Shown: positions 726 to 61,200 of the stretch, one piece after another | How the letters are laid out: each line of letters opens with the position of its first letter | How positions within the stretch are numbered: the stretch's first letter is position 1 | Source of the DNA: Pontiella desulfatans | GTDB taxonomy: Bacteria > Verrucomicrobiota > Kiritimatiellia > Kiritimatiellales > Pontiellaceae | Reading direction: 5' to 3' | Length of the DNA: 64,000 nt | Assembly (NCBI RefSeq): GCF_900890425.1 | Contig: NZ_CAAHFG010000001.1 | Location: 1,488,001 to 1,552,000, forward strand | Notes under the pieces: generated by a model | What the model saw: only the letters and a program-made list of their open reading frames with translations | The model's database searches: none | What the model was told of the DNA's origin: nothing | Made by a program: the position numbers and the translations under genes

Positions 726-3700
726 TCACTCCTTTTGGACGATAATGCGTCCGAAGCGGTTCGATGCCTCCGAAGTGGTGATATGATCGGATACAGAAAC
801 CCGTTCAAACCCGGTGTCAACGGGCGTGGTGGTTTCAGAGGAAACCGCATCGGTCCAGTTGGTGGTCAGGCAGTCGGTAAACTGCGCTTTGTAGGTGAGG
901 TCGTCGGCCTGTATGCGGCGGATATATTCCACCACGAGTCTGTTTTCACTCCCGGAAAATTCCCAATGGGGCAGCCCGTTGTTTCCAGAGGCTGGAAGAG
1001 TATAGCGCTCAGAAAGGTGCGGGTTAATGTTGAAGGCGTAGTCCAGCGTGTATCCAGCATCGGTGGATAAGCCGTGAACGGATGCCCAGTCTGCAAAGTT
1101 GGTAATCACAGAGGAGGGGGCGTTGCCGCTGATGCTGAATTCAGCCACAAAGTTTCTGGCGCGGTTTCCGTTCGATCCGTCTTCTGTGCTGATCATGGTG
1201 AAGGCCGACAGGCCGTCGATGCCGGGATCCTGCGTGAGCGACTGGGTGGAGGACACATCAGTCAACGTTGTGAATCCACTGTCCGGACTGGTTATCGTGT
1301 AGGTTCTGGCCGCGTTGTTTCCTTTGGTGGAAATAAAACCGATCTCCGAGATGGAATAATTGGTGGCACCGGAGCCGAGGGTGACGGATACCGAGGTGAT
1401 ATCCATGGTCAGGGTATACCCGGGATCAAGCCGGTAGCCGGCACTCAGTCGATCCACTGAACCTCCTGTGGCATTCACTGAAAACCCGATTTCAACCTGA
1501 TCATCGGTTCCGCCGGTTCCATCAATGTCGAGGCCGTTGATGGTGATGGCCGGTGCGGAAATGGTTCCGCCCTGAGTGGTTGATGCGGTGGTGCTGTTGC
1601 CGTTCAGTGTGGATGCGAGATCTTCCGCTGCACCAAAGGTGACGGACAGGGTATGTGTTTGTGAGGTGGGTGGAGCAGATATGGCCAGGGAAACGGTTGC
1701 GGTGGAAGCGCCGGCATTGTTTACGGCGGAATACGTGAAGGAGTCATGCCCTGTGTATCCATTCGTGGCAGCATAAACAAATGATCCATCCGCATTCAGT
1801 TCAAGAATGCCGTGGCTGACGTCTGATACCAGCGATGCGCTCAGGGTGCCGCCGCTTCCTGGGACATCGTTATCAAGGATTCCGGGGCTTGGAACCGTGA
1901 TCGCCTTCGGGGCGGTTTCACTATAGCTGTCTGGATTCGCTGTTGGCGGAAGAGTCAGCTCAATCTCCCGCATGGCTTCGCGCGTTTCAATGGAGAGATT
2001 GCTGATGGAGAAGGCTTGTCCGGAGTCGGTCGATTCGCTACGGAAGCGGAACTCGAGGTCGGCGGGGAAGGTGAACTCGGTGTCGTGCATATCGATGACG
2101 TCCGAATAGGTTTTGTTGGTGAGCAGGACATAGCTGAAATCATAGTCTTCCAGCAGTGTCCATGCGGATCCGTCGAACCATTCGAGCAGCAGCTTGTCGG
2201 AGTCGGTGAAGTTCTGAGTTTCGAATTCGAAGGTAACGCGCACGGTTCCGGCGTTGGTTGCATTGAATGTGGTGCTGGTGGGGGCGGGGGTCCAGTCCTG
2301 CCACGCGGTCAGGCGGGTGTGGTCCATGTAGATGCTGCCGCCGGTGCCGTTCAGGTCGGCCTGAATTCCGAACTGTATTGCATCGGGTGAGCCAATCGAG
2401 GTCAGGTCGAATGTCAGGTTTTTCTCGCCGGCACTACTGATGGTCTGGAATGTGTTCCAGCCGGAGCCGTCGTTGTATTGGATTTTCAGGGTTGCACCGC
2501 CGGAGAAGGCGCCGCCATCGATGAAGATGGATTCGAGCTTGAGCAGGTCGAGTACACTCGTATCAAGCGCGTTGCTGACGATCAGTCGGGAAACGTCGGC
2601 TGCGCTTCCGTTGAATTCGATGCAGTTGTCGCCGGACTCGTTATCGCCGTTGGAGGTGTTGAGGTTGATGCCCGTGGTTTCCGGCGTCCAGATATCCCAT
2701 TCACCGGCAGGTTCAAAGAGGGTGTGGCCGATTAGCTTCCAGTCGTCGTGCGGGTTGTAGAATACGTCGCGCACATAGTTCGGATCGTTGGCCTGCGCAT
2801 TCTGGAAGGCCGCCTGATCGTCCACGAGCTGGGCGTTGGCGGCGGGGTCGGTGCGGTTGGTAAAGGCGTTGATGACGAGGTCGTCGCCACTGACAATCAT
2901 TTCCTGCAGCATCAAATCCTGTAGGTCGGCCAGATCGGCGGCATAGGCAGGGGAGCTGAAGAGGTTGGTCAGACAGTGCGGGTCGTTGGTGATATCGTAC
3001 AGCTCTTCCACGGTACGGTATTCGAAAAAGTCTGCATAGGCCACGGCGGCTGCGTTCGTTGCGGAGCGGAGTGCGCGCCAGCTATGCATGCCGGTGGCCA
3101 CGCTGCCGACTGTATCCGATCCGTTCGACCAGGGGTTGTAGATGTAGAGCAGTTCCGTTGTTTGGATTGCGCGCATCTTGTTGCGGTCGTTTTGTTGCTT
3201 ATACACATAGTCGCGCCATTCTGGATTGATTTCGCCTTTCACGATAGGGGCGAACGAGCGTCCATCCACACCGACAGGAATCGGCTGGCCGATCATTTCG
3301 CAGAAGGTGGGGAGCAGGTCGAACGAGGCAATCATTTCTGTGTTGTTGACGGTATTGGAGCTGGTGACGCCTGGCCATTTTACAAAGAGCGGCGAACGGG
3401 AACTGTGGTCGTAGAGCTGGGTTTTTCCGCCCGGCAGCTGTACGCCGTGGTCGGAAACCACCACGATGATTGTGTTGGAGGTCTGGCCGGCGTCATCAAT
3501 GGCCTGCATCATTTTACCAATGGAATCGTCCGCGCGTTTTACCGTGTTGTAGTAAGCGGCAACCTCAACCATCATACTGTTGGTCTGGGTTACAGGATCA
3601 TCCTTTGAGGGCAGTGTTCGCTCATTCTCACTCATCGGTGGGAACCAGGCCGGGTAGGGGACATCATGTTCCGTATAGATGGTGCTTGGATGGTTGTCGG

Positions 3701-4283
3701 TTTCTGTGATCGTAACGCCATCCTTGTGATCCCAGCCATACCATCCGGTGTGCGGGTCGAAAATGTTGAGGTTGAAATAGAGCGGTTTTCCCTGTGAGCT
3801 TGCGGCAGCAAAGGCGTCGGTCAGTTTATCGTACACGTTCTGCGGATCGCGGGTGGAGCCGTAGCCGTCGTATTCCACATCAAAGCCGGAGTAGGGATCG
3901 AACGGCGACATATGGCTGTTTTTTCCCATCAGGCCGGTGTGGTATCCCGCCGCGCGGAACACATCCGGCAGGGCAGGTTGGGTGAGGTGGTTTCCCGCAC
4001 CTTCTTTGCCCAGCGAAAAGACCCGGTTGTGCTGCTGATATTGACCCGAGCTCATGATGTTACGCGATGGGGTGCAATTCCCTGATTGCACATGGCAATG
4101 CTCAAACCGCAGGCCTTCCTGCGCCAACGCATCGAGATTTGGGGAAATGTTGGTGATCGTGCACCCATGGATGCCCAGGCTTTCGCGGCTGAGATCGTCG
4201 ATCGTTACAAAAACAAAGTTGGTTTGTGCAAACAGATTGGCCGCAAGTGCCGCTGTTCCAATGGTTGGAAGAAACCTTTTCAT
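726..4283 (-). CDS. Multidomain secreted sulfatase (S1 family)
   Basis: A 1185-residue exported sulfatase. Signal peptide 1-20; catalytic alkaline-phosphatase-fold domain about 21-500 with paired metal-binding Asp29/Asp30 and the formylglycine motif Cys70-Thr-Pro-Ser-Arg74, so a sulfatase-maturating enzyme (not in this window) would have to convert Cys70. Two beta-sandwich carbohydrate-binding-like regions follow (~520-770), then a cadherin-like repeat (~780-870, NPDSY...DNDVPGSG), a module also found at the start of the acetylesterases at 7340 and 13726 (~885-1065), and a C-terminal tail ending SNRFGRIIVQ, shared with other large proteins here. Ordinary S1 sulfatases have 450-550 residues, so more than half of this protein is accessory. 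The substrate cannot be read from sequence. A regulated promoter lies ~85 bases upstream. Confidence 0.9.
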   Translation of the reverse strand: MKRFLPTIGTAALAANLFAQTNFVFVTIDDLSRESLGIHGCTITNISPNLDALAQEGLRFEHCHVQSGNCTPSRNIMSSGQYQQHNRVFSLGKEGAGNHLTQPALPDVFRAAGYHTGLMGKNSHMSPFDPYSGFDVEYDGYGSTRDPQNVYDKLTDAFAAASSQGKPLYFNLNIFDPHTGWYGWDHKDGVTITETDNHPSTIYTEHDVPYPAWFPPMSENERTLPSKDDPVTQTNSMMVEVAAYYNTVKRADDSIGKMMQAIDDAGQTSNTIIVVVSDHGVQLPGGKTQLYDHSSRSPLFVKWPGVTSSNTVNNTEMIASFDLLPTFCEMIGQPIPVGVDGRSFAPIVKGEINPEWRDYVYKQQNDRNKMRAIQTTELLYIYNPWSNGSDTVGSVATGMHSWRALRSATNAAAVAYADFFEYRTVEELYDITNDPHCLTNLFSSPAYAADLADLQDLMLQEMIVSGDDLVINAFTNRTDPAANAQLVDDQAAFQNAQANDPNYVRDVFYNPHDDWKLIGHTLFEPAGEWDIWTPETTGINLNTSNGDNESGDNCIEFNGSAADVSRLIVSNALDTSVLDLLKLESIFIDGGAFSGGATLKIQYNDGSGWNTFQTISSAGEKNLTFDLTSIGSPDAIQFGIQADLNGTGGSIYMDHTRLTAWQDWTPAPTSTTFNATNAGTVRVTFEFETQNFTDSDKLLLEWFDGSAWTLLEDYDFSYVLLTNKTYSDVIDMHDTEFTFPADLEFRFRSESTDSGQAFSISNLSIETREAMREIELTLPPTANPDSYSETAPKAITVPSPGILDNDVPGSGGTLSASLVSDVSHGILELNADGSFVYAATNGYTGHDSFTYSAVNNAGASTATVSLAISAPPTSQTHTLSVTFGAAEDLASTLNGNSTTASTTQGGTISAPAITINGLDIDGTGGTDDQVEIGFSVNATGGSVDRLSAGYRLDPGYTLTMDITSVSVTLGSGATNYSISEIGFISTKGNNAARTYTITSPDSGFTTLTDVSSTQSLTQDPGIDGLSAFTMISTEDGSNGNRARNFVAEFSISGNAPSSVITNFADWASVHGLSTDAGYTLDYAFNINPHLSERYTLPASGNNGLPHWEFSGSENRLVVEYIRRIQADDLTYKAQFTDCLTTNWTDAVSSETTTPVDTGFERVSVSDHITTSEASNRFGRIIVQKE

Positions 4284-4398: not shown

Positions 4399-4419
4399 GC
4401 CATGAATCCACGGTATTCC

Positions 4420-4567: not shown

Positions 4568-6439
4568 CTATCTTTGAAAAACCGGAATAATCTGCTTTGG
4601 GGCGGTTGTTCGCATTTTGCCCATGCCCTTGTTGTGGGCGGTGATGACGATGATGAGGTCTTCTTCGGGGATCATCAGGATGAATTGTCCGCCCGCACCG
4701 CGACCGGAATTAACACCGTAGGATTTTTCATCCACTTCCACATCTTCGCTCCACCAGAAAAACCCGTAGTTGGAAAAGCTGCTTTTCCTCAACGGAGAGG
4801 TGGCAAGTGTCACGAATTCAGCGGGGATCAACTGTTTGCCGTTCCAGGTGCCTTGATTCATCGCGAGCTGCCCCCATTTGAGCATGTCGCGCGAGCGCAT
4901 GCTGGAGCCGGCGGCCGATTTCGGCAGACCACTTACGTCTTCCTGCCAAACATAGCTGGTGATACCCATCTTGCCGAGCAGCTCGGTTTTGATGAAGTTT
5001 TCGGCGGAACCCGGTACTACCGTTTCTAAAACCTGCATCGTCATGGAAGGGTCGGAGCCCTGGTATTTAAATTCGCGAGGGGGGGCGGGAATCGGGGTGG
5101 TCAGTTCGAGATAGGCCTGGATCTGTTTTTGGCCGCGCAACTGTTCCGGTTGTTTCATCAGTTCCCGGGCTTTGGCTTTATCGACCCGGATGCCCGAGCG
5201 CATATTCATCGCTTCGGCGAGGGTGATCGTCTCCGCCCCTTTGGCGAGCTTGCTGCGATCCAGCTCTTTGAGGAAATCCACGACCGGTTTGTCGAGATCG
5301 GCCATGGAAAGATGGCCCAGCTGGATGGCGCGGCCGATGGCCATGGCGGTGTAGGACTTGGTGATCGACATCTGGTAGTGCGGATAGTTGGCGCGCCCTC
5401 GGCGGTAGTAGGATTCAAACACCAGTTTCCCATCCTTGGAAATCAGCAGGCTATCGATTTCTCCATGGACGCCGTTGAAGATTTCCCTGGCGAAGGTGCG
5501 AACAGCCTTTTCCTGCGACGCAGAGAGGGTGCCCACGGCAATGCCATCCCGCCGATCTTTCGGAGCGGCATTAATGAAGGCGTGCTTCAGGTCGGGAAGA
5601 TGCTGTTCGGCGGCGTATGAAATATCCGCTGCATTCAGGTCGGTCACTTCCGGCGCGGTGCCGTCGTTAGCAGGTACCATAGCGGATAGAAGTTTGATCG
5701 ACTCCTCCGCAAAGCGGGTGCCCAGAATTCTGTATCCCTCGGCCGACATGTGCAGGTCATCGACTCGCTGCGAAACCTTTTTTGTTTTCCAATGGGGCGG
5801 GGAGTCGCCGGTGTTGAGGTCGTCGGTGCTGAAGATGGTGCAGTTGGGCATGCTGTTAGCGACATTCTTCAGCGCCGTTCGTACTTCTTCCCATTCCGGG
5901 TATAGCGGCTCTTTGTTATTCGCGCCGAAGTCGCTCAGGTTGCCAATCACAAAGACGATGGGCGTATCGGGAAAATCATGTTCCAACTGTTGGAACAGTT
6001 TGCGCAGGCTCTTTTCATAAACGGCGGAATGGCGCTCGCGGGCATCGCGCTCGCCCTGCATCCAGCAGAAGGCAATCGCTTTCGGTTTATCGCCTTTTGT
6101 TGCCGTCGCAATCTTTTCCATCATGCTGTCATACATGACCCCGTTTTCTTCCGGCTTTGGCGGCTTGGTGTTCGGGATGTTTGGATCGACCTTCCAGCCC
6201 GGCGCGGCCTCCCAATCGTGTACCCACATACGGATCGGGCGGCCGCCGATGGCTTCCTTAACGATCAGCACATTCTTTTTCCCGTATTCCTTCTGAACGC
6301 ACGGAATAAAGGTCTGCCGTTCGTTCATCCCCTGCATGTTCGACTGCCCGGAAAGGATGAAGAGAACTTTGCCGTCGTCTTGGGCAAAGACTATGGTCGA
6401 CATTGTGATTAATGTTGCGAGTAGGGATTTATATTTCAT
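4568..6439 (-). CDS. Fusion of SGNH/SASA-type esterase and beta-lactamase-family serine hydrolase
   Basis: 623 residues. Signal peptide 1-19 (ends VFAQ). Residues ~23-255 are an SGNH acyl-esterase of the sialate O-acetylesterase kind: SGQSNMQGM holds nucleophile Ser33, and a DLHMSAEGY block gives the Asp/His pair. Residues ~320-615 form a class C beta-lactamase/esterase domain with SITK (Ser at about 357) and a Tyr in SNYGFFWW. The fusion couples two different serine hydrolases in one exported protein; it may remove two kinds of acyl substituent from a glycan. This is inferred, since family VIII esterases and penicillin-binding proteins share the second fold. It lies 87 bases downstream of the esterase at 6527 in the same direction. 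Confidence 0.85.
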   Translation of the reverse strand: MKYKSLLATLITMSTIVFAQDDGKVLFILSGQSNMQGMNERQTFIPCVQKEYGKKNVLIVKEAIGGRPIRMWVHDWEAAPGWKVDPNIPNTKPPKPEENGVMYDSMMEKIATATKGDKPKAIAFCWMQGERDARERHSAVYEKSLRKLFQQLEHDFPDTPIVFVIGNLSDFGANNKEPLYPEWEEVRTALKNVANSMPNCTIFSTDDLNTGDSPPHWKTKKVSQRVDDLHMSAEGYRILGTRFAEESIKLLSAMVPANDGTAPEVTDLNAADISYAAEQHLPDLKHAFINAAPKDRRDGIAVGTLSASQEKAVRTFAREIFNGVHGEIDSLLISKDGKLVFESYYRRGRANYPHYQMSITKSYTAMAIGRAIQLGHLSMADLDKPVVDFLKELDRSKLAKGAETITLAEAMNMRSGIRVDKAKARELMKQPEQLRGQKQIQAYLELTTPIPAPPREFKYQGSDPSMTMQVLETVVPGSAENFIKTELLGKMGITSYVWQEDVSGLPKSAAGSSMRSRDMLKWGQLAMNQGTWNGKQLIPAEFVTLATSPLRKSSFSNYGFFWWSEDVEVDEKSYGVNSGRGAGGQFILMIPEEDLIIVITAHNKGMGKMRTTAPKQIIPVFQR

Positions 6440-13725: not shown

Positions 13726-16700
13726 TTAGTTTTGTATCACGATCACACGCCCGAAGCGGTTGGTGGCATCCGCCGTGTCCGTTTCATCCTCAACCATGAC
13801 GCGTTCCCACTCGTCATTAACGGGACTGATGGATTCCGAAGCTGCCGAGTCCACCCAGCTTGACGGGAGATTATCAGTAAACTGAACGGCGTAGGCGGTT
13901 CCAGGCGCATCCGTGCGGCGCAGGTATTCCACAACCAACCCGTCGGCGACATCCATTTCCCAATAGGGCAGGCCGGCGGTTCCAGTGGTTGGAACCATGA
14001 TGGGGCGGTCTTCGTTTAGCGTGGGATCGAGGTTAAAGGCGAAGTCGAGTACATGTCCGTCGCCGGAAACCCCGTACCAGTCGCTCCATCCGGCATAGTC
14101 GTTGATGGCCGGAGCTTTCAACTGGATCGGGGACAAGTAGGCACCGTCGATGATGTTGGTTGTTCCGCCCAGATCCCACGCGACGGAGCAATGGTCTTCG
14201 GCGCCTTCGTTGTGCAGCGCCATGATGTAGTAGCGCTGGCCTTCGACCAGTGTGATCGGGGCGGACACCTGGTTCGCGTTATTCGTCCAGTTTTCATATT
14301 CGCCGCCCAGCGAGACCGCGCATTCGCAGATCAGGCTTGCGTTTGCCGGATCGTCGTCCGTGCTCAGGAAGAGCCTGGAACGGGCGGCCGAGGTGATCCA
14401 GAACGTGTAGTTTCCACTGGCCGGGGGGTGCAGGTAGCCGTGGATGCGCTGGCCGCCTCCCTCGAAGTCGCCATGCGGGCTGTCGAAACGGCTAATGGTT
14501 TCGGAACGATCCGGGGTATCCGGATAATCTGGATCAGCCAGCAGATCTTCGACGCTGTAGCCGGAAACATCGTTCCAGATTTCACGGGTGATGCTGCCCA
14601 GTTCGGCACCGGGCGCGAGTACGCTCAATTCAACTTGGGCGGTTTCGCTCGTCTCGGTTCCGTCTGTCACGAAGTATGAGAAGGAGTCGGCACCGCTGAA
14701 TCCTGAATTCGGCGTGTAGATGAACGCGCCGTCGGAGCGAACCGTCAGGGCACCGTTGGTTGTGCTTGATACAACGACCGGGCGTTCGATCGGCAGCAGG
14801 GTGGAGGCGATCGAGTCATTGCCCAGGATTCCGTCGGGAGCAATGTAGAGCGGTGCGTCTTCGAATGTGCTGTAGCTTTCGCCTTGGGCGAAAAGCGGCG
14901 TTTCGCGGCACATGCGTGCCGGCAGCCCATCAACGTTCATCAGGTTGCCCTGCGCAAAGCGGCTCCAAGCATACCGGAATCCGGCCGGGTCTGGAATGGT
15001 TGGTGCTGAAACCAGCACGGTATTTCCCGAGATGACCGCGGTGGCGTTGGTAAAGTTCCCTTGGGCATCGCAGACTTCAAACCATCTCAGATACGGGAAG
15101 TTGATATCCCACTCGGACTTGTCCCATATGCCGTCGCCGTCAATGTCTTCGCCGGGATCCAGTATGCCGTTTTGGTTGAGGTCTTCGCCGTACCCTTCGA
15201 TGACTCCGTCATTGTCATAGTCTTCGCCCAGGATCGTTTCGTTGATGTCGATAACTAAATCGCCATTGGCGTTGTAGCCAATGTTGGTATTGATGGCCAG
15301 TCCTCCGCCGACCTGATCGAAATAGAGGCGCAGTTGATTGCCTTCCTTGACGGCGTGCGTGAAGACCGGACCCTGATCCTGGATGGAGCTGTAGCCGTAT
15401 GTGTTTTTTAGAATTCGGCGGCCCATCCGTTCGCCGGCGGGCCGTTTGTTTTTCGGGTGGAGATCGCCATCAGTCGTGTCGCTGATGACAACCATATAGG
15501 TGTTGGTGGAAATATCCTGAACCATGGTTTGCGCTTCCCAGAAATAGGGCAGCATCGGGTCGGCATCGACTTCGGTGTCCCAGGAGAAGACCGGAGGGAT
15601 CTGCATGTAGTAGAAGGGGAAGTCGCCTTGGGCGAACCCGGTGCGCCAGTCCTCGATCATGATCGGCAGTTTGTCGGCAACAATGTGGCCTCCGTCGTCG
15701 TGGTTGCGTTCGCCCTGATACCAGCAGGCGCCGGTGATCGGCTGCCGGAGGTAGGGATAGACCATGCCGTTGTAGAGCTGTTGCGGGTTGGCGGGGTCGG
15801 AGCCGACCGGGTGCGCTTCGGGCAGCGGAGAGTTGGCCCAGGCTTCCATCGGTGTTCCGGCATAAGCGGACTGAATCACGCCAATCGGAATGCCTAATTC
15901 CAGATGCACTTCTTTAGTTGCATAGTAGAATGCGGCACCGAAGTAGCCTGCATTTTCTGGATTGCAGACAAACCACGTTCCGGCTTTATCTTTCAAGGCC
16001 CCCGTGTCGGTATCCCAATCCAGCGTGTTCTCAAGAATAATGGGATCATCGCTCGGGGCTGACAGTTTATATCGCGGAACGCGGATCAGCCGGAAGGCCG
16101 GATAGTTGGCAACAGCAATTTCTGCGTCGGCCCCATCGGTGGCGGATAGCGACCAGCCCGCATTCGACTGGCCGGAGCAGAACCAGACATCGCCGACGGC
16201 AATATTGGTGAGCGTAACCGATGAGCCGGGCGTGCTGACGACCAGTGTTAATGGGCCGTTCGTGGCCGCCATGGCCGCCAGGGAAAGCTCCCAGCGCCCT
16301 TCGGCGTTCACCACGGCGGTCTCGAACTGGCCCGAACTCAGGTTTGCCGATACGGTCTTGCCGACCGGACCCCAGCCCCAGACGGCAATCGGCTGGTTGC
16401 GCTGCAGGACCATGTTCGATTGGAAGTAATGCGGGAGTTTGATCGGAGTGCCGACCACGTTCAGCGTAACGGTTGCCACGTTGCCGGTGAGTCCGCCATC
16501 GGTGGCTTCGTAGGTGAATGAATCGGTTCCAACAAAGTCGACGGTGGGCTGATATACAAACGCGCCGTTGGTGGAGAACGAGAGCAGGGTGCCATTCGTG
16601 GGCGAGGAAACGAGAAGCGCACTCATGGAATCGCCGTTGCCGTCGGAGTCGTTGGAAAGTATGCCCGGTGCGGCGTTGGTGAAGAGGGTGTTTCCATCTA

Positions 16701-37217: not shown

Positions 37218-38968
37218 GGCTGGTTTATTATCCTGATTGAGTTGAGTTTAAGGTTGAGCTGATCTGCCAGAAGCCGCTTGTCGTTATAGAACCATGGATT
37301 GCGCCAGAATTGAATTTTCAGGGATGTGACGGCGGTTTCATCAATATGGATTCCAAGCAGGTTGTCGGCGTTTATGCGGTAGGTGGTTTGTTGTTTCCCG
37401 AGTTCAATGTGGGCGTAACGTTCCTGTTTGAAACGATCGATGAGCAGCACGCGCATCCAGCCGGGTGGCTCGGGGGTGGCCTCCTGGATTTCCAGATCGA
37501 TCTCAATCTGTTTCAGGACGAAAAGATTGACGGGCGGGAATTTGAAGGTGGCGTGGGTGGGAGCAGTTGAACCTTTTGCTAGATAGTTGATGCCGACGGC
37601 GCCGGTTTCCAATGGTTGGAACCGGATATGGGCCGGTGCATCGGTGGAACAGTTTGAAAGCGGGAACTGGATGTTTGGTGAAATACTTTTCGATGGTTTG
37701 GGATCTGTTTTCCACGGAATCGCATCCCGCTGTTTCCAGGTTTGAAGCAGTTCCGGGCGCTGTTTGATGTGCGGTTTAAGCAATTGGAGTCCGTGATGGA
37801 TGAGCGGATCGGATGCGTAGATTTTTCGGACGATGCCGTTGTGCAGATGGTTGGCGAGGGCAAGAAAGAGCATGCCCTGGTCGAGGGAGAGGTAGCGGTG
37901 GTCCCACTGGCCGGTTTTCATGTTGAAGGCATCGCGCAGTCCCCGGCGTTTTCCTTCGTAGCCCTTGGGTGGAACGGTTCCGTCGCGCTGAACCATTTCG
38001 CGCAGGGTGGCGGTGGCATGGAGCGGGTAGTAGTCGAGCATCAGTGCAACCGCGTGGGGGGTAACGACGTGTTCCGAGAGATAGCCGCCCTGGGTGTAGC
38101 CGCTGCCGGGCATGTAGCAGTTCGACCAGCCCCACAGGGGGTATCCGCGGCGTTGTGCCATCCGGATCTGCTGCCAGGCGAGGTTGCCGGCGGACTCGCC
38201 TACCTCGGTGTCGATTTCCGGCAGGAAGAGTCCATCCATGGCATGCAGGAACAGGCCGCCCATGCCGTAGCCGCGGCAGATGGTGCCATAGGGGGTATCG
38301 AGTGCCTGGCGATCCATTCTTGCCCAGACTTCGGGCGGGGCGGCCTTGGAGGCCACCATCATGAAGACCGCCGAGCGAGTGTCGGCGGTCAGCCAGAGGC
38401 GGCCCCCGCCGGTTGGAGCATCTTTATTGAAATCATAGCCCCAGCTCAGGGTGCCTGCTTCGGGATGATAGAGGCGGTTCCATTCAATGGCATCGAGAAA
38501 GGCGGTTATGCGTTCGGCCAGTTCCGGCCAGGTTCGGCGTGCCATAATCAGGCCGACGGCCAGTTTGTTGAAATCGGAGACCGCCATGACGCCTTCGGTC
38601 TTCTGATCCTTCAGATCCACCGGAATGAAGTTGGGCATGAAGCCGTGCATTCGCTTGCAGCCCTCCAGCGAGGTAAGGATTTTTTCGGCACGTTGCAGCG
38701 CGGGGGCGGAGCGGATCAGTCCGACTTCTTTGGCGGTACACAGCGCCGCGAGGTAGAGCCCGATGTTGGTGGTGTTGGTGTGCCCGCCGGGAAGCTGTGT
38801 ATCGCGTGGAAACCCGGTGGTTGTGTCGAGCATGTCGTCGAGGCATACCCAGGTATCCAGGAGCAGGGCGGTCAGGAATTGTTCGTCTGTCTCGCGCAGG
38901 AGCGCGAAGGCGGTTCCCGTGCCCAATACCGCTGAGCTAGTCAGCTGACCAAAGGTTCTTCGATTCAT
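37214..38968 (-). CDS. Glycoamylase-like (alpha/alpha)6 protein with beta-sandwich C-terminus
   Basis: 584 residues from ATG 38968, which overlaps the preceding stop (ATGA); a frame open further upstream is not coding. N-terminus MNRRTFGQLTSSAV is Tat-like. Residues ~30-420 have the helical-barrel features of the glycoamylase-like family related to GH144/GH162: GVMAVSDFNKLAVGL, GGLFLHAMDGLFLPE, VTPHAVALMLDYYP, GLRDAFN followed by YLSLDQGM. GH144 and GH162 members cleave beta-1,2-glucan, which would suit the GH94 phosphorylase at 51144. Residues ~430-584 look like a carbohydrate-binding beta sandwich. Assignment to one GH family is not secure from motifs alone. Confidence 0.65.
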   Translation of the reverse strand: MNRRTFGQLTSSAVLGTGTAFALLRETDEQFLTALLLDTWVCLDDMLDTTTGFPRDTQLPGGHTNTTNIGLYLAALCTAKEVGLIRSAPALQRAEKILTSLEGCKRMHGFMPNFIPVDLKDQKTEGVMAVSDFNKLAVGLIMARRTWPELAERITAFLDAIEWNRLYHPEAGTLSWGYDFNKDAPTGGGRLWLTADTRSAVFMMVASKAAPPEVWARMDRQALDTPYGTICRGYGMGGLFLHAMDGLFLPEIDTEVGESAGNLAWQQIRMAQRRGYPLWGWSNCYMPGSGYTQGGYLSEHVVTPHAVALMLDYYPLHATATLREMVQRDGTVPPKGYEGKRRGLRDAFNMKTGQWDHRYLSLDQGMLFLALANHLHNGIVRKIYASDPLIHHGLQLLKPHIKQRPELLQTWKQRDAIPWKTDPKPSKSISPNIQFPLSNCSTDAPAHIRFQPLETGAVGINYLAKGSTAPTHATFKFPPVNLFVLKQIEIDLEIQEATPEPPGWMRVLLIDRFKQERYAHIELGKQQTTYRINADNLLGIHIDETAVTSLKIQFWRNPWFYNDKRLLADQLNLKLNSIRIINQP

Positions 38969-39702
38969 TCCCCTTCCTTCGCGTGGGAAAGGAACCATTT
39001 GTAGAGTTCGGGGGTATTGTAAGCTTCGACCCAGGAGTTGTGTCCGGTTTCGGGATAGATGGTGAACTTGACGCTTGTGGAGCCTTTTTTCTCCAGGGCA
39101 TCGACCATTTCCTGCGACATGCTGATGGGCACGACCTTGTCTTTGGCTCCATGGAAAACCCATATGGGCATATCAACAAGGCGCCGGGCCACCATGCGGC
39201 AGCCGCCGCCGCAGACGGGGGCAATGGCGGCAAAGCGGTCGGGATAGGAGGCGGCGAGCGCCCATGTTCCAAAACCGCCCATACTGAGTCCGGTCAGGTA
39301 GATGCGGGATTCATCGACGGGATAGTTAGCCACCAGCTCATCGATGAGTGCGTTCAGGGCAATGATCTTTTCGGGGTGCGACCACTCGATGTCTTTCGAG
39401 CATTGCGGGGAGGCGATGATGAACGGGAATTCTCTTCCCTTGGCAATCAGCATGGGCGGTCCGTTGCGTTTAACCAGTTCCAAATCGGAACCCCGCTCGC
39501 CGGCACCGTGCAGGAAGAGCATCAGCGGCCACTTTTTTCCAGAGGTTGGAACTTCTTCGGGAACATGCAGGAGATAGTCCAGCTCGGCTTTCAGTTGAAT
39601 GGTCGTAGATAGTTTTTCGGTTTGTTGGCCTGCCAAGCTTATACACCCTGAGAGTGTCAGGCTGATGGTCAAGGCTGCGGCGGTTCGATGAATCATGTTC
39701 AA
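38965..39702 (-). CDS. Secreted alpha/beta-hydrolase (carboxylesterase-like)
   Basis: 245 residues. N-terminus ends in LTLSGCISL: a Cys after Leu-Ser-Gly is a lipobox, so this may be a lipoprotein. LHGAGERG forms the oxyanion hole, GLSMGGFG the nucleophile elbow (Ser ~139), FHGAKDKVVP the Asp, ETGHNSW the His. Paralogue of the protein at 6527-7285. It is second in the operon: the large unknown gene ends 13 bases upstream and the glycoamylase-like gene overlaps its stop. Likely role: removal of ester substituents before or during chain cleavage. Confidence 0.85.
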   Translation of the reverse strand: MNMIHRTAAALTISLTLSGCISLAGQQTEKLSTTIQLKAELDYLLHVPEEVPTSGKKWPLMLFLHGAGERGSDLELVKRNGPPMLIAKGREFPFIIASPQCSKDIEWSHPEKIIALNALIDELVANYPVDESRIYLTGLSMGGFGTWALAASYPDRFAAIAPVCGGGCRMVARRLVDMPIWVFHGAKDKVVPISMSQEMVDALEKKGSTSVKFTIYPETGHNSWVEAYNTPELYKWFLSHAKEGE

Positions 39703-39715: not shown

Positions 39716-42700
39716 TCATGGTTTCATTTTCAGTAGACGCAGGTTGTCGATGATGACGCGTTCATCGGCAGTGACAGCGGTGGCGTTGTCTCGGGTGAGG
39801 CGGATGATGAAGCGCAGTTTAACGTGGTCGGTATCGCGCTTGCGGAATCCGGCACTGAGTCTGGTCCGGGTGTCGGGCCGTTCGAGGGTGTCGAAGTAGT
39901 CATCGCGAATCTGAGCGTTTGTTGCGTCGTACACCTTTACTGTGCTGCGGAGGCTGGAGCCTTGCAGGTTTTCGGTGATGACATCGTATTCGAGCACATA
40001 GTGCGTGTTGGTCGGATCTGCTGATATGTCGTACTCGCGATAAACCTGTGTGTAGTTGCCATTGGCGGCACCAACGGTGGCAATGAATTCGCAGGAACGG
40101 GAACCTTCGAGGCGGCTGTCGGCCACATTCGAACGGCTCAGGCCGGTCTGCTGCGTGGATGACCATCCGTTAAGGTTTCCATCCTCGAAACCATGGTTGC
40201 TGAAGAGCTCGGGTTTGCCGTCGAGTTCGACCGTGATCTGCTCGAAGGGGTGGCCGGAAAGGTCGGCGCGCAGCTCGGTGGCTCCGGCGGGTTTGAAGGT
40301 TTCCAGGGGTTGGAAACCGGTGTCTTCCGAGATAAAGGACGTGCCGTTATACCACTGCACGCGCAGCGGGCCGCTGTTGGTGGAGAGGACTCGTGCAATA
40401 TATCGGGTGCCTTCGAAATCGGCGGATACATTGTAGGTCTGGTTGGAGAGCGGCTGGAGCAATTCACCTTCTGCTCCTCCCACCATAAAGTTGGTATAGC
40501 CTGCGGAGGCAGGGACGGTGAAGGGTGAATATTGATAGCCGAGGTAGTCCCAGTTGGAACCATCGGTCGTGCCCCTGATCTGCCGTTTGATGAGCTGGGA
40601 GAATTCGACGAGATAATCCCCGTTGGTTTGAACCGACCACTGTGGTTCGAGATAGGTGTGGTTGGCAATGGTCTGGTCGATACTTCCGGGCTTAAGGAGT
40701 TCTCCCAGGGCATAACCTGCATATTGGTGGTCGGTGGGGCTGATGTTGCTCATCAGCCAGGTGGGGTAGTCGTATGAGATGCGGGTGAGCAGATGAGGGT
40801 CGTTGTAGTTTGCAGAGCCTTCCAGCAGTTGGCGGCGTCCATCGCGGTAAGCAAAGTAGGCGCCGACCACCGGAACCGTGTCGCCATGAAGTCCGAATCC
40901 GATCACGGTGCCGAAGCTGTTTACGGTGCCGGGGTGGTAGGTGTATTTGTCGGCGCTGTAGGTGTGGGTGGTGGATGGGTCGGACTTGCTCAGGTCGGGA
41001 ACCTGTCCGGCAGAGAAAGCGGTGAGGTGTTCGGTGGCATGGTCGTCGGTCCAGCCGGCATAGAGGGCATAGAAGTTTTTGAATTCCTGTTTCCAATCGT
41101 TGGAAGACCGGCAGTAGGCGACGGTGGCCTGGTCATACATGCGCCAGAAACCGGCCATGGCAGTTTTTACGATCGGTTCAGTTGGCAGCTCATAGTTGTA
41201 TGCATGGTTGTCGCGATAGCGCCAGTAGTCGAGGTAGGCATTTTCGTTCATCGGTTCGGTGGCGGCCATGAGCTCGCTGTAGAGATGCAGTTCCTGATAA
41301 GGCGCAGGACGATGCCCGCCGATGACCGGACCCATATCGTCGGCAGGAGAGGCAAACTTGCCGAACTCGCGGACGTAGTCGCGCTGGTTACGCAGGCGAC
41401 TGATCATGGTGTTGGCGGCTTCGACGATTTCAGTGTCGTACCAGAAATAGTTTTTAGCACGGATGGCCATGTGAATGGCTTTCATGGTGGAGTACGCGCT
41501 GGTGGTGGCGTCCGGATCGGCATCGTTCCATGCCAGATTGCCGGTGTTGGAGTCGTACCAATGGTGCCACTGGCCATCTGAATTAACGTACAGGGTGGAA
41601 TATCGCTTCACGATCTCGCGAACCATGCCCTGTGCTTCCAGATCACCATTGACGTTGTGGCTCATCAGAAGCTGGTTGACGACCCAGTAGGCCGCATCGG
41701 GGCTGGCCACCGAGCCGCGGTTTTTATTCCAGCGGGTGGCAGCATTCTGCACCATGCCGGTGAGTCCGCCATCCTGCCAGCAGAGGGTTTTGGCAAACCG
41801 TACATTCTGCTCAAACTCATCGGCCACCCATTCCATGAAGTCCATGCGGGTGTCGTTGGTGTCGGCGATCATCTCCGGAATAGGTTCTGCGGAGAGGATT
41901 CGTCCGCAAGCCGTTGCCGCGATATCCTTCAGCTCATCGGAGGTGTTGATATAGGGGGCGGGCGTAAAGGAGCCTCCTGCCTGCAGGTCGGCGGTGGAGA
42001 CGAGGAGCAGGTTCCGTTGGGCACCGGTGTCCTGAAGGATTATCAACCCGCCTTGCCCTGGTGCGCCGAACGTGCGGCCCATGCTGATGGCGACCATGTT
42101 GGATACGGTGGCGATCTGCGTCAGCACCGAGTTGGTCGGATTGAGGCGGTATAGATGGTTCGGCGATGCCACGTAGAGCATCTGATCCTGAATGTCCACG
42201 GCGATGCCGCGAACCGATGCACCGATATTGACCGTTGCGTTGTAGGAGCCGGTCAGGTCGTCGAGCTGTGCATCGTAGCGGAGGATGTCGCCCCCGGCGG
42301 TGCCGACAAACAGTTCGCCTTTGAAGTGGGCGATTCCAAGCTTCCCGCTCCCCAGCGAGAGCCCGGTGATAAAATCGCTCTGCTGTCCGGTTCCGGCGTT
42401 GTAGGCGATCACTGAGTCCGGAGTGGACATGAACAACTGGCGGCCGGAGGCCGTGAAGGCCATGCCGTTGATGTTGGTGGCGGTGAATGTATCCAAGGCT
42501 GCTTCTTCAATTTTGCTGATCTGAATACTGTTCTCGGTGGCGGCAGCATAGAGCCCGGCATACTGCGCGGCCGCCACGCGGGTGGCGGCGTTGAAGCCGC
42601 CCCATCCCGCTCCGGGGGACTGCATGAACAGCGTCACGTTATCAACCAGAGCGGAGGACTGGGTGCTGATTTCGATGGTGTTGTCGGTCGTCCAGTGGAA

Positions 42701-43441
42701 CCAGGCGCGTACGGTGGCTGTGGTGGGCGGGGCAATTCCGCTGATGTTTAAATGTTTCCAATCCTCGGACGTGTCGAGGTTGGCATTCACATCCAGTGTA
42801 ATTCGCGAAATTTCAGAACCGTTTCCATTCAACCAGATGATGGCCATTTCGAGTGTGCTGCCGTTGGATTCAAAGTTGGGGTTGAACTTGAAGGCGGCAT
42901 CGAGCGTGTATTCCATTCCGGCAACGCCCACGGTATCCTGCCAGAACGAGCGGTCGAGGTTGGTGGCGAAGGCTTTCAGCCAAACTCCTTGCTCACCGGT
43001 TTCGCCCGCCCATCCGGCCTTATGGATATCCTGCCGATCTCCGTCTTGAGTCCATTCGCCATTGGCACTCACATTCGTTCCTCCTGATGCCAGTGCCGGT
43101 GTTTCAAAGTCACCGTTGATGATCAGGTTGGCTGGCGGAGCAGAGGTGGAGGAGGCTCTGTAGAAGTGGGTCGTTGGGGCAAGCGGCGCGGTGTCCACAT
43201 AAACCATGTTGGAGCTGGTTCCTGGCAGTTCTGAAACGACGGTGTTCCAATCATTGGAAAGCAGGTTGTCGGTCCGGAGGATGCTGTAGTGTTGGTCGGC
43301 CTGTGTTTCAAATTCGAGTGTGGCCACCACGCCGCCGGGGGAGGTGGTGAAGTCGTATGCGGTGAATGGAACGGGGGTGGATGCCTGCACAATCAATGCA
43401 CAGAACAGGCTCATTCCAATGATCTGAATTCTGTTTTCCAT
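39716..43441 (-). CDS. Large secreted protein, binding domains around a helical-barrel-like core (function unknown)
   Basis: 1241 residues. Signal peptide to ~20; an N-terminal ~80-residue part (FTTSPGGVVATLEFETQADQ) akin to beta modules; a carbohydrate-binding-like domain (~105-275, LIINGDFETPAL); a region of ~six short repeats with propeller spacing (~285-500: GMAFTASGRQLFMS, RGIAVDIQDQMLYVAS); a largely helical region (~510-870) rich in Trp and Tyr (DGQWHHWYDSNTGNLAW, DYWRYRDNHAYNYE) that could be an alpha/alpha toroid hydrolase or lyase; then two beta domains (~930-1060 and ~1065-1241, ELFSNHGFEDGNLNGW). I cannot name a family. It heads the operon with esterase, glycoamylase-like and SGNH genes, so a polysaccharide lyase or hydrolase is a fair guess. 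Confidence 0.75.
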   Translation of the reverse strand: MENRIQIIGMSLFCALIVQASTPVPFTAYDFTTSPGGVVATLEFETQADQHYSILRTDNLLSNDWNTVVSELPGTSSNMVYVDTAPLAPTTHFYRASSTSAPPANLIINGDFETPALASGGTNVSANGEWTQDGDRQDIHKAGWAGETGEQGVWLKAFATNLDRSFWQDTVGVAGMEYTLDAAFKFNPNFESNGSTLEMAIIWLNGNGSEISRITLDVNANLDTSEDWKHLNISGIAPPTTATVRAWFHWTTDNTIEISTQSSALVDNVTLFMQSPGAGWGGFNAATRVAAAQYAGLYAAATENSIQISKIEEAALDTFTATNINGMAFTASGRQLFMSTPDSVIAYNAGTGQQSDFITGLSLGSGKLGIAHFKGELFVGTAGGDILRYDAQLDDLTGSYNATVNIGASVRGIAVDIQDQMLYVASPNHLYRLNPTNSVLTQIATVSNMVAISMGRTFGAPGQGGLIILQDTGAQRNLLLVSTADLQAGGSFTPAPYINTSDELKDIAATACGRILSAEPIPEMIADTNDTRMDFMEWVADEFEQNVRFAKTLCWQDGGLTGMVQNAATRWNKNRGSVASPDAAYWVVNQLLMSHNVNGDLEAQGMVREIVKRYSTLYVNSDGQWHHWYDSNTGNLAWNDADPDATTSAYSTMKAIHMAIRAKNYFWYDTEIVEAANTMISRLRNQRDYVREFGKFASPADDMGPVIGGHRPAPYQELHLYSELMAATEPMNENAYLDYWRYRDNHAYNYELPTEPIVKTAMAGFWRMYDQATVAYCRSSNDWKQEFKNFYALYAGWTDDHATEHLTAFSAGQVPDLSKSDPSTTHTYSADKYTYHPGTVNSFGTVIGFGLHGDTVPVVGAYFAYRDGRRQLLEGSANYNDPHLLTRISYDYPTWLMSNISPTDHQYAGYALGELLKPGSIDQTIANHTYLEPQWSVQTNGDYLVEFSQLIKRQIRGTTDGSNWDYLGYQYSPFTVPASAGYTNFMVGGAEGELLQPLSNQTYNVSADFEGTRYIARVLSTNSGPLRVQWYNGTSFISEDTGFQPLETFKPAGATELRADLSGHPFEQITVELDGKPELFSNHGFEDGNLNGWSSTQQTGLSRSNVADSRLEGSRSCEFIATVGAANGNYTQVYREYDISADPTNTHYVLEYDVITENLQGSSLRSTVKVYDATNAQIRDDYFDTLERPDTRTRLSAGFRKRDTDHVKLRFIIRLTRDNATAVTADERVIIDNLRLLKMKP

Positions 43442-51112: not shown

Positions 51113-51143
51113 TGCAACAACACTGGATCGCAAGGAGAAGGCG

Positions 51144-54100
51144 ATGAAACTCAATATTGGAAAACGCGACGATTTTGATCTGGTCGAATACTCGAACAAG
51201 GCCGGGCTGAAAATCGGCTTCCACCGCAATGGTGGAACGCACTGCATCTGTCTGAACGACCTCATGGTCAGTCAGCTCGAAGGGCATCCGCTCCAAGGCG
51301 GCCTCGATCGGGTAGACCTCCGCTTGCTCGGCGCCGATGAAATCCAAGCCGTTCCCATGTCCGGTACTTCCGCCAACTGCGCGTTTCACGAAAACGGGGT
51401 GCGCTGGATGCGTACGGAAGAGGGGATTGAAGCCGCCGTCGAGCTGGTGTTGCATCCCGAACTGCCGATCCTGTATCGCATCTGCCACGCGAAAAACACG
51501 AACACCAAGGCCGTTTCGATCGACTGGATGGCGGGGCAGGATATCGGCATTGCCGATCCCGGCGCGCTCAAGAGCAACGAGGCCTATGTCTCACAATATC
51601 TCGACCACAAGATCATGGCGCACCCGATCGCCGGGAAGGCGGTTCTCAGCCGCAACAACCTGCACCCGAAAAATCCCGTCGCTGCCAGCTTCTGCCTGCA
51701 GGGCGCCAACTCCGCCTCCACCGACGGCTACCAGTTTTTCGGCACCTCGTCCAAGATAGATGGCCAACCCGCCGCACTCGGCTTCCAAGCCCTGGAAAAC
51801 CGAGTTAAGCAGTACGAGTTCGCCTATACTGCGCTGCAGTCGCGTAAAATCCACCTGCAACCCTGCCAAAGCAGCGTTACGGTTTTTGCGATGTACATTG
51901 TGGACGAGCACCCGGATGTGACCTCCGCCGCCGACCTTGCGCTGATCGATGCCGCGCTCAAGGCTGACCAGCCGGAGCCCGGCGCCATAACTTCGGATGC
52001 AAATTCCGGTGCTTTTTTCGCCGATGCCGAACTGCTGTTCGGTCAGCCGTTGGAAAAGGATGAACTTGAAAAACTGTTCGGAAGCGAATGGCGTCACACC
52101 GAATACTCCGACCGCCACGAGCTCTATTCCTTCTTCTGCGGCGAAGACACACACGTTGTACTTCCTGCAAAGGAAGCCATCGTTGAACGGCAGCACGGCA
52201 CCATCCTGAAATCCGCCCACGGTGCGGAGCTGGATGAAAACGTCCTGTGCATCACGGCCTACGGCTACGGTGCGTTCGGTTCGCAGTTCTCCGTGGGCAA
52301 CACCTCCTTCGGGCGCTTCACCACCATCCAGCGTAACTCGCTAAACCTCGAGCGCTCCAGCGGCATTCGTCTTTACGCAAAGATGGCCGGGCAGTGGCGG
52401 CAGCTTGGTTTCCCGTCGGCCTTCGCCATGGAGCGCGACCGCGTCCGCTGGATCTACAAGATTGAAGCAACCACCTTCGAGGTCGTGGCGCACGCCACCT
52501 CCGAAACGATCGAATATTCCGTGGTTTCCATCTCGGGGACGCTTCCGCCGATGCGCGCCACCCTCGAGGTGCACGGCGACGCCAACGAGTTCGATTCCGC
52601 GCCTGGCGTAGAGTGGGATGCCGACGACGGTCTGCTGACCCTCCTTCCCGCCGAAGGCTCGTTGCTGAAAAACAAATTCCCCGAAGCCTGCATGCTGGCA
52701 AAGGTCGATGCCGCCGAATGTCTCGTCGGCGGGGCCGAGTTGATCGGCGGCGAAAAGGAACCCTATGTGGTAATCGATGTGCCCTCCGGACAATTCTCGC
52801 TTTCGCTGACCGGGCACTATGAAGGCCGCGCCGTCGCGCAGGCGCGTTTCGGAAAAATTACGGAACCCGACTGGGACGCGCTGATGGCCAACTTCCATCT
52901 CGAATCGAAGTGTCCCGTTACCACCAAGCTTTCCGACACGCTCAAATGGTATGCCCACAACGCCATGATCCACTTCGCCGCACCGCGCGGCATGGAGCAG
53001 TATGACGCCGCCGCCTGGGGCACGCGCGACGTCTGCCAAGGCCCGCTCGAGTTCCTTCTCGCCGTTGGCCATGATCAGGTCACCGCCGACATGCTGCTCG
53101 AAACCTACTCGCACCAGTTCGAAGATACGGGTACGTGGCCGCAGTGGTTCATGTTCGATGGCTTCCACGAAATCCAGCAGCACGAATCGCACGGCGATAT
53201 TGTCTACTGGCCCGTCAAAGCGCTCTGTGACTACATCGAAGCCACGGGCGATTTCAAGATCCTTGAAAAAGAGGTGCCCTATGCGGGCTCCGACGAGTCC
53301 GTAACTATTTTCGAACACGTCAAGAAGGCGGTTGACCATATCATCGAGAGCTGTGTCGATGGTACTTCGCTGCCGAGTTACGGCGACGGCGACTGGAACG
53401 ATTCTCTTCAGCCTGCTAACCAGGAGATGAAAACGAACATGGTCAGCGGCTGGACAGTCGGTTTGGCCTACCAGTCATTCACGGCGCTTTCCAAGGTTTG
53501 GAAAGCCTACGGCCGTGAAGCCGATGCCGAAGGACTTGACCAATTCCTCTGCAAGATGTTCGCCGATTTCCAGAAGCATATCATCGAAGATGGCGTCGCC
53601 GCTGGGTTCGTCTTCTTTGCTAAAGATGAAACCACGCACATGCTGCACCCGTCGGACGAGGACGGCATTACCTGCCGCCTGTTGCCGATCAACCGCTCGA
53701 TCATCAGCGAACTCTTCACGCCGGAGGAAAAGGACTTCCACCTCGACCTCGCCGCGCGCCATCTCAAATTCCCGGACGGAATGCGTTTGATGGATCAGGC
53801 ACCCGCCTACACGGGCGGAAAATCCACCCGCTTCCAGCGCGCCGAAACGGCATCGCACTTCGGTCGCGAGATCGGGCTTCAGTATGTACACGCGCATATC
53901 CGCTACTGCGAGGCCATGGCCAAGGTCGGCCGCGCCGACGAGCTGGTGGAGTGCCTGTTGCAGATTTCCCCGGTCGCCATTAAGGAGACCGTGCCGAACG
54001 CACGGCCGCGCCAGGCTAACCTCTATTTCTCCAGTTCCGATGCCGATGTCTACGATCGCTACGAAGCGCAGCGCGGTATGGGTGAACTGAAGAAGGGCAA

Positions 54101-54444: not shown

Positions 54445-54461
<17 letters not shown>
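51144..54461 (+). CDS. GH94 phosphorylase, probably 1,2-beta-oligoglucan type
   Basis: 1105 residues from ATG 51144 with CAAGGAGAAGG ahead; ATG 51105 (overlapping the symporter stop) is an alternative. No signal peptide, so cytoplasmic. GH94 marks: AAWGTRDVCQGPLEF, the catalytic-acid region YGDGDWNDSLQP (Asp ~750), and the late GGWRLYSSGPGIY helical-barrel end with a final beta jacket. Length (~1100) and the long N-terminal half match 1,2-beta-oligoglucan (sophorooligosaccharide) phosphorylases, longer than cellobiose phosphorylases (~800). It would use phosphate to release glucose 1-phosphate. Neighbours fit: importer before it, GH1 after it, a possible beta-1,2-glucanase relative at 37214. 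Confidence 0.75.
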
Positions 54462-59615: not shown

Positions 59616-59637
59616 AAATGAAACATCAAAATCGTGA

Positions 59638-59677: not shown

Positions 59678-59687
59678 GTGCCTACAC

Positions 59688-59706: not shown

Positions 59707-59721
59707 ATAAGGAGTAATAAA

Positions 59722-61200
59722 ATGAAGACTAAGTTATTGGAACAACTGGGTATCTATGGATGGAGTTTGGAAGATGAAAACCTGGCAATGGCCTCGCTGT
59801 TGACGGGTGATCCGCTGCTGATGGTTGGCGCGCATGGCGCGGCCAAGACGCATGCGGCGGGTAAAATCGCGCAGGCGATGGACTGGAAGTTCATGGCCTA
59901 CGATGCCAGCAAGGCGTTGTTTGAAGACGTACTGGGATTCCCGAACGTCGAAAGCTTGAAGCAGGGGCGCGTGGAATATGTGCCGAGCGCGGTCACCGTA
60001 TGGGACAAGCAGTTTGTGCTGATCGATGAGATCAACCGGGCTGTGCCGGAGCTACAGGCCAAGTGGCTGGAGATTATCCGTTCCCGCAGGATCATGGGTT
60101 TTGAGACCGAGGTAAAATGGGTCTGGAGCGCCATGAATCCAATGGGGCGGCAATACAACGGCACCCAGCAGATGGATGCCGCGTTGATCGGACGCTACGC
60201 CATTTTCCTCTATCCACCGGAAGCATTGGATATGGATGAGGAAGATCGCATCAAGGTGCTGCGCCATATCAATGGCGACGATGCACCAAGCATTGGCGAA
60301 TGGTGCCAGCAGTCGGAAACCAAGACTGTCAGCAAGGCGGACACGGAAAACACCGGACAGCAGATAAGGGAAATTCTCTTAAAGGCAGGATCGCTTTTCC
60401 AATCATTGGAAAAGGATTTTCAATCGCTGGGTGAATTCCTCTCCCGGTTGGCGGTGCTGGTCATGAAGGAGACGGACGGCAGCGTAAAGCTGGATGGCCG
60501 TCGCCTTGGATTCATCTACCGCAACCTGTTGTCGAACCGTGCCGTCGAGCTGGCACGCCAGTCGATCCGTGGCGACGACCTTCCTTCATTTGCGCAGAGC
60601 GCGAAGAAGGTGATCCTGTCGAGTATTCCCATGGGATTGAACGACGAGGGGATCAACCGCGAGGAACTGCTGCACCAGGTGGAGGTCTGCCTTGATCTGT
60701 TGGCGGACTATTTCAGCGAAGGCGGAAACTTCCAAAGGGTGGAAACCGTCTATCGCCTGTTCACCACCACCGACCTGTTCGAGAAGGCGGAAATCCTCCT
60801 CGGCGAAAACCTGTCGGAAATGGTGAAGCTCAAGGCATGGAACAATCTGTGCGACGCGCCGGGGCAAATCACGCCGCTGGCCTACATCGCTTTGCGGGTC
60901 GAGTCGCTCCATCCCGGCAGGATTCCATCGGAACTGCTGGAAAAGGTTGGGGGACAGATCGATCTCCAAGGATTGGAAACCGACACTATTCCCGGCCTGA
61001 CGGGCGACAACATCGAGTTGGTTGAACAAGTGGAAATGCTTTTCGACCAAGCCGACGACCTACGCCGCATGATCGCATACCAGGAGGTGCGCACGCTGGC
61101 CGTGCGGTCTGAGCTGGATGAATCGGAAATCGGAAAGGCCAAGGCGAGAATCGAATCAACGGCGGCTCGGATCGAGTCGTTGCTTGGGAAAGGACAATGA
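59722..61200 (+). CDS. MoxR-family AAA ATPase
   Basis: 492 residues from ATG 59722, behind AAGGAGTAATAAA; a longer in-frame start at 59656 overlaps the terminator and is rejected. AAA core: Walker A GAHGAAKT (Lys42), Walker B FVLIDEINRA (Asp103-Glu104), sensor-like WVWSAMNPMGRQ (~140), arginine-rich IGRYAIFLYPPE. The C-terminal ~230 residues are helical and longer than in simple MoxR proteins (~330 total). MoxR ATPases remodel or activate partners with VWA domains using the MIDAS as bridge. Two bases separate it from the SAP-domain gene. It belongs with the VWA gene 1.8 kb upstream. Confidence 0.9.
   Translation: MKTKLLEQLGIYGWSLEDENLAMASLLTGDPLLMVGAHGAAKTHAAGKIAQAMDWKFMAYDASKALFEDVLGFPNVESLKQGRVEYVPSAVTVWDKQFVLIDEINRAVPELQAKWLEIIRSRRIMGFETEVKWVWSAMNPMGRQYNGTQQMDAALIGRYAIFLYPPEALDMDEEDRIKVLRHINGDDAPSIGEWCQQSETKTVSKADTENTGQQIREILLKAGSLFQSLEKDFQSLGEFLSRLAVLVMKETDGSVKLDGRRLGFIYRNLLSNRAVELARQSIRGDDLPSFAQSAKKVILSSIPMGLNDEGINREELLHQVEVCLDLLADYFSEGGNFQRVETVYRLFTTTDLFEKAEILLGENLSEMVKLKAWNNLCDAPGQITPLAYIALRVESLHPGRIPSELLEKVGGQIDLQGLETDTIPGLTGDNIELVEQVEMLFDQADDLRRMIAYQEVRTLAVRSELDESEIGKAKARIESTAARIESLLGKGQ

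Follow-up and report, generated by a model that had tools for sequence, protein, structure and literature searches.

The 64,000-nt stretch of Pontiella desulfatans DNA analysed here (the window; G+C content 56%) contains 18 exact copies of the gapped palindrome TTCCA-N5-TGGAA between positions 983 and 60744, about 200-fold more than the 0.09 expected from 100 dinucleotide-preserving shuffles. The palindrome is a real signature at the DNA level, and throughout the 8.66-Mb genome (G000) it occurs 670 times, against 7 occurrences of the pattern read backwards. With a confidence slightly above even, it is interpreted as the site of a sequence-specific, probably dimeric and cooperative, chromosome-organising protein, whose action would extend over the whole chromosome in some members of the window's class. 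An earlier sequence-only reading had counted the same 18 copies over the same span. The strong excess it reported stands, while its figures (about 300-fold over about 0.06) give way to those above, and the one-mismatch copies, put at about ten, number 16 in the window, bringing exact and one-mismatch copies to 34 against 2.4 expected. One-mismatch copies cluster at motif positions 1, 5, 11 and 15.

The excess of this sequence does not stem from protein sequence. In a 944-kb sample of the genome, composed of contig C1 1.10-1.48 and 1.488-1.652 Mb (around the window) and the first 400 kb of contig C2, with loci L012-L015 (80 kb, chosen for their sites) excluded, 66 of 73 sites lie inside genes, close to the coding fraction of 0.84, and are distributed evenly over frames 0, 1 and 2 (21, 23 and 22). 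Genic and intergenic labels are approximate, as the gene calls come from a simple caller. A synonymous-codon shuffle, which preserves protein sequence and codon usage, yields a mean of 8.3 genic sites (625 predicted genes, 200 shuffles), well below the 66 observed. By frame the expectation is 6.5, 0.12 and 1.7, corresponding to excesses of about 3-fold, 190-fold and 13-fold. Within 200 kb of genome G035, 50 of 57 sites are genic (frames 24, 15 and 11), where the shuffle gives about 6; within 200 kb of G081 the figures are 17 of 28 and about 2. When similar protein surroundings are grouped, the 66 genic sites represent 52 independent contexts, with 8 sites in the largest cluster; copies are not confined to one homologous domain family. 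Selection at the DNA level, as proposed from the sequence, is supported by the occurrence of sites in all frames, the codon-preserving control and the C/G centre found in every frame. The encoded peptides F[QH]x[LMV]E (frame 0; 26 against 3 reversed) and S..W[KN] (frame 2; 35 against 9) are over-represented, and the frame 1 peptide shows no excess (335 against 335). Where FQxLE and SxxW recur in these proteins, the cause may lie in the DNA. Density is uneven along the genome, with 18 sites in the 64-kb window and 10 in C2 1-400000, a roughly tenfold difference in site density between the glycan-degradation region (the window, on C1) and this part of C2. Decay and import of sites are candidate explanations, considered in the light of the one-mismatch spectrum.

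The motif extends beyond its core. The full form is TTTTCCA-R-N-S-N-Y-TGGAAAA, with inner positions that vary as lineage dialects. The N5 segment is constrained at its centre, which is C or G in 60 of the 66 genic sites (binomial p about 6e-10 at 56%), at 16/21, 23/23 and 21/22 for frames 0, 1 and 2, and in 48 of the 50 genic sites of G035 (p about 2e-10 at 56%); the same C/G centre is seen in several lineages, at intergenic as well as genic sites. Position 6 is mostly a purine, with C/T in other genomes, and positions 7 and 9 are near background. The commonest base flanking the motif is T, at 45-62% in the genic sites of three genomes. In loci from GTDB, which were chosen for 31/32 bp spacing and for which all figures are those among the matches listed, flanking T reaches 76%, and the extended motif in 117 loci is TTTTCCAA[T/G]S[A/C]TTGGAAAA. 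When gapped palindromes are scanned blindly, this motif, together with its shifted forms, comes out first in three site-rich samples: G035, the window and G398 (which is one genome with G464, the coordinates being identical). Samples of 80-120 kb from each of the site-poor genomes G050, G087, G186 and G121 contain no gapped palindrome in more than 7 copies among the matches listed. In the G121 sample (L359-L363), several gapped palindromes occur in 4 copies against 0.05-0.1 expected, an observed/expected ratio as high as that of the motif in G035; these may be local repeats.

The distribution of the motif is patchy. Among 387 genomes sampled from the phylum, 44 are site-rich (at least 50 copies), with 52 to 2,297 copies each; all belong to the window's class, outside of which the maximum is 30. 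Within the window's genus alone, counts span 7 to 2,297; G035, G159, G227, G247 and G383 are among its site-rich members, and G050, G087 and G300 among its site-poor ones. The restriction to the class is a property of this 387-genome sample, because a few GTDB locus record titles (among the matches listed) name Spartobacteria and Firmicutes. Close pairs of sites occur in all 40 of the 44 site-rich genomes searched for them (1 to 749 pairs; reversed control 0 in each), are missing from 41 of 45 site-poor genomes and present in the other 4, and are found in four of five genomes outside the earlier count. In one phylum member, G061, the motif is absent and the reversed control AAGGT-N5-ACCTT occurs 55 times, possibly as another iterated palindrome.

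In the relatives, sites lie mostly in intergenic arrays with unrelated spacers, and the close pairs are helically phased. Adjacent spacings in 30 loci from 40 site-rich genomes, with 16-46 bp allowed, are 21-23 bp (13), 30-33 bp (32) and 16 bp (2), with no others, so that 45 of 47 fit two or three turns of the helix (Rayleigh test for a 10.5 bp period, p about 3e-14; all Rayleigh values assume independent gaps). The two 16 bp pairs sit in L211 and L212, outside the helical classes. The GTDB loci remain phased when the 31/32 class is set aside (p about 3e-10 for the 35 gaps left, which fit a period of 10.35 best), and phasing is also seen in loci from 50 further genomes, 45 of them site-poor (22 gaps, p about 2e-7). 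In G398, 29 of 32 spacings are 32 bp. The spacer sequence in the GTDB loci carries almost no information. Of these arrays, 102/147 are called intergenic, and the genes on both sides are arranged as 60 tandem, 16 divergent and 13 convergent, against 314, 65 and 60 for all gaps; since array orientation tracks that of all gaps, there is no promoter preference. No gene family recurs beside the arrays at more than 3 of the 117 loci among the matches listed, 27 small genes with an upstream array share no regulator by eye, and 20 loci contain 1 tRNA.

Helical phasing points to cooperative protein binding. The two- or three-turn spacing of close pairs favours one of the options raised from the window sequence over the others, namely the target of a dimeric chromosome-organising protein; we infer protein binding, a dimeric and cooperative mode and an architectural role. 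Predicted dimers at neighbouring sites would touch when two or three turns of the helix separate the sites and place them on the same face of the DNA, and contacts between dimers would assemble the sites into arrays. Such a protein would act as a nucleoid-associated protein or a global regulator instead of controlling particular promoters. A HIP1-like iterated palindrome, linked either to a repair bias or to an orphan DNA methyltransferase, would share the excess inside genes in all frames and the patchiness within one lineage, but is very unlikely: the flank preference, the C/G centre amid variable bases and the phasing of pairs would be unexpected of a methylase site. An RNA-level element, namely transcription terminators or hairpins, is hardly credible. 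Idealised single sites do have folding energies of -7.7 and -10.1 kcal/mol, and those of three two-site units range from -18 to -30. Of 25 arrays in G398, 12 have a stop codon no more than 31 bp away, against 8 with a start codon at such a distance. However, the genic location of 66 of the 73 sites in the 944-kb sample does not suit such an element, mismatch orientation is inconsistent (positions 6/10 G-U 29 to 9, positions 7/9 A-C 33 to 17, in GTDB tandem gaps among the matches listed), and exact helical spacing is unnecessary for RNA.

Site turnover appears to proceed mainly by substitution in a set of five PFK orthologs (73-76% identity to G035), a comparison of one gene in which the direction of change is not polarised with an outgroup. 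Motif sites occur at three places, one occupied in G247 only, one in G035 only, and one with an exact site in G159 and G227 and a one-mismatch copy in G247 and G000. Most differences in the alignment are substitutions, located where the sequence is variable, and short gaps lie close by; in G000 a gap of 12 bases falls at the first of the three places. In this gene, sites in coding DNA apparently come at the cost of amino-acid changes. The suggestion that a short mobile palindrome lands in genes finds no support in PFK; one intergenic unit in G398 was probably copied. Most G398 sites belong to 2-4-site units between genes, commonly AAAAC-P-GTC-N11-GAC-P-GTTTT, which often occupy most of the intergenic gap, and two units, L252 and L264, share an exactly inverted 17-nt spacer (one pair among 29 spacers), likely through one copying event. 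The loops of this pair differ slightly.

These units resemble what REP/BIME-like elements would produce, in which a transposase or recombination copies palindromic units from one intergenic region to another. In GTDB tandem gaps (155 sites, among the matches listed), moreover, the upstream stop is nearer (median 73 bp) than the next start (124 bp). Such an origin is nevertheless improbable for the motif as a whole. Spacers were numerous enough for comparison in three of six other genome groups, and in these three their similarity does not exceed that of column shuffles; genic sites vary mainly by substitution in the one gene compared, and the two spacing classes of 21-22 and 31-32 bp are left unexplained. 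In Fisher tests on hand-compiled presence lists, which covered 44 site-rich genomes and 54 site-poor ones and left aside the remaining poor genomes of the class, the Y1 transposase profile PF01797 matches 41/44 rich and 43/54 poor genomes and is unmatched in the array-bearing G151, G053 and G386 (193, 61 and 122 sites), indicating that a REP transposase is not required.

Dispersal in all frames, tolerance in genes, substitution-type turnover in one ortholog set, lineage dialects and patchiness among members of one genus are also features of an uptake-type sequence, in which a competence receptor prefers DNA with the motif, and biased uptake and recombination spread it by substitution. ComEC (PF03772) is matched in 43/44 site-rich genomes, but it is about equally common in poor ones (52/54) and appears not to discriminate between them, and it is unmatched in G118 with 418 sites. 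To our knowledge, helically phased intergenic arrays and a palindromic form are not expected of uptake signals. Phages, too, carry arrays of the motif, and an uptake-type origin is judged unlikely. The array pattern is matched in twelve stretches of eleven viral contigs, and four of the five viral-contig loci examined have phage protein matches (L156 has none). In L148 the array separates a gene that weakly matches a head protein from the gene next to it, and in L147 six sites precede the terminase gene. Separately, the stretch of G121 that matches ComEC (C1 1409676-1410500) contains three TAG codons in frame; the usage of stop codons over 100 kb gives no support for TAG recoding in this genome.

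Several findings weigh against a cooperative chromosome-organising protein. There is no significant phasing in 10 gaps of up to 130 bp in G000 loci, nor in 7 gaps from G035 and G081; exceptional spacings of 16 bp occur twice and of 38 and 43 bp once each, the latter two in the loci from the 50 further genomes; and with two spacing classes the period is poorly fixed, with best fits of 9.15, 9.65 and 12.95 in three sets. The shared inverted spacer in G398 belongs here as well. No binder was found among the profiles searched. AbrB/MazE proteins have the consensus TNCCA-N4/5-TGGNA; their profile PF04014 matches 26/44 rich and 33/54 poor genomes, and its lack of a match in 18/44 rich genomes, including the single-contig G081 and G383, excludes them as the general binder. 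A ParB/Noc paralog is likewise rejected: HTH_ParB has one match in 40/44 rich genomes and none in G159, G321 and G245, and an extra copy beyond the usual single match is seen in G214 (two). Lrp/AsnC (PF01037) is matched in 44/44 rich and 44/54 poor genomes (p 0.002, kinship uncorrected); the lrp gene thus occurs in site-poor genomes too, the profile is unmatched in G443, which bears arrays and is 88% complete, and among 28 lrp loci of about 3 kb (12/28 from site-rich genomes) 27 have no exact site and one has a site at 1.1 kb. Sites near the regulator's own gene are common for Lrp/AsnC, but not universal. Lrp/AsnC as the binder is compatible with these data but unproven, and because of G443 and the lrp loci without sites, an Lrp-type architecture is an analogy and not an identification.

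All 18 window sites lie inside predicted genes (6, 8 and 4 in frames 0, 1 and 2). Their placement in unrelated genes and several frames, as described earlier, agrees with the 52 contexts and even frames of the larger sample, except that the sites at 983, 13980 and 24183 occupy an equivalent place in similar domains. The MoxR cassette does carry sites, as had been noted, but they say little about its origin, because phage contigs carry sites too. The gene at 39716-43441, with three exact sites, encodes a predicted 1,241-aa protein.

Table 1. Exact motif sites in the window, and motif arrays in phage contigs with the profile matches of their loci.
Feature	Position	Gene (strand) and product or match	Frame (peptide)	Remark
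Exact site	983..997	726-4283(-), sulfatase with Ig-like domains	1 (LPASGN)	Surroundings resemble 13980, 24183
Exact site	4256..4270	726-4283(-), same gene	1 (LPTIGT)	Codons 5-10, near gene start
Exact site	5981..5995	4568-6403(-), SASA esterase/beta-lactamase	0 (FQQLE)	Sole window site without C/G centre
Exact site	13980..13994	13726-17343(-), Ig-like/SASA	1 (VPTTGT)	
Exact site	24183..24197	23101-26988(-), SASA/S9	1 (VPTIGN)	
Exact site	25751..25765	23101-26988(-), SASA/S9	2 (DSNPWN)	
Exact site	26151..26165	23101-26988(-), SASA/S9	1 (LPVIGN)	
Exact site	26436..26450	23101-26988(-), SASA/S9	1 (VPGIGN)	
Exact site	31743..31757	30727-36384(-), SASA plus Big_9	1 (LPILGN)	
Exact site	37607..37621	37214-38968(-), glycoamylase-like	0 (FQPLE)	
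Exact site	39537..39551	38965-39696(-), alpha/beta hydrolase	1 (VPTSGK)	
Exact site	40301..40315	39716-43441(-), no Pfam match	0 (FQPLE)	
Exact site	41091..41105	39716-43441(-), no Pfam match	2 (SSNDWK)	
Exact site	43245..43259	39716-43441(-), no Pfam match	2 (LSNDWN)	
Exact site	51783..51797	51105-54461(+), SOGP/GH94	0 (FQALE)	
Exact site	53489..53503	51105-54461(+), SOGP/GH94	2 (LSKVWK)	
Exact site	60397..60411	59722-61200(+), AAA ATPase (MoxR of the earlier reading)	0 (FQSLE)	
Exact site	60730..60744	59722-61200(+), AAA ATPase (MoxR of the earlier reading)	0 (FQRVE)	
Phage array	L147 2786-2946	Terminase		
Phage array	L148 2022-2068	Terminase, portal		
Phage array	L154 650-767	Terminase, portal		
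Phage array	L151 428-473	DnaB-like helicase		

With up to 2,297 copies per genome, the motif implies an unrecognised selective force or drive, and it offers a way into the organisation of chromosomes in a class that has been little studied but includes cultured members. As rich and poor relatives occur in one genus, the missing gene should be findable by comparison. A bolder version, held tentatively and below even confidence, is that a new nucleoid-organising protein reads a code of phased palindromes, which in some lineages rewrites protein sequences and which host phages carry. The open-licence literature yielded no published description of this motif or of such a repeat, the broader palindrome literature having been sampled partly, and a search of it linking nucleoid-associated proteins with taxon names beginning Kiritimatiell gave no match. 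The stem 'palindrom' is absent from the main text of two Pontiella papers (PMC7356697, PMC10880615).

The motif differs from each known system with which it shares features. Unlike DNA uptake sequences, which are gene-tolerant and substitution-driven with lineage dialects, it is palindromic, arrayed and present in phage contigs. Noc/ParB-type sites are dispersed palindromes for chromosome organisation, and the TTCCAC dialect of the motif resembles half a parS, but the motif has far more copies, and there is usually one HTH_ParB match per genome. We know of no phased arrays of HIP1 (GCGATCGC, cyanobacteria). HIP1 is similar in being a palindrome iterated in the genomes of one lineage and low in some members, and differs in being 8 bp long, ungapped and associated with orphan methyltransferases recognising its inner sequence (PMC4390886). 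REP repeats (PMC3733652) are likewise many short intergenic palindromes; the present motif is distinguished by helical phasing, unrelated spacers and genic sites that vary mainly by substitution. NrdR box pairs have 15-16 bp between boxes and bind best at integer turns, as stated in PMC12051234, but they serve ribonucleotide reductase operons, whereas the present motif comprises hundreds of sites without promoter preference. The arrays also resemble Lrp/AsnC operators, described in PMC2995911 as semi-palindromic clustered sites, two or three helical turns apart from centre to centre, on which oligomers wrap DNA, and the palindromic sites here have the same two- or three-turn spacing. Lrp/AsnC sites are degenerate with an AT-rich centre, whereas the present motif has a strict core, a C/G centre and copy numbers reaching the thousands in a single genome.

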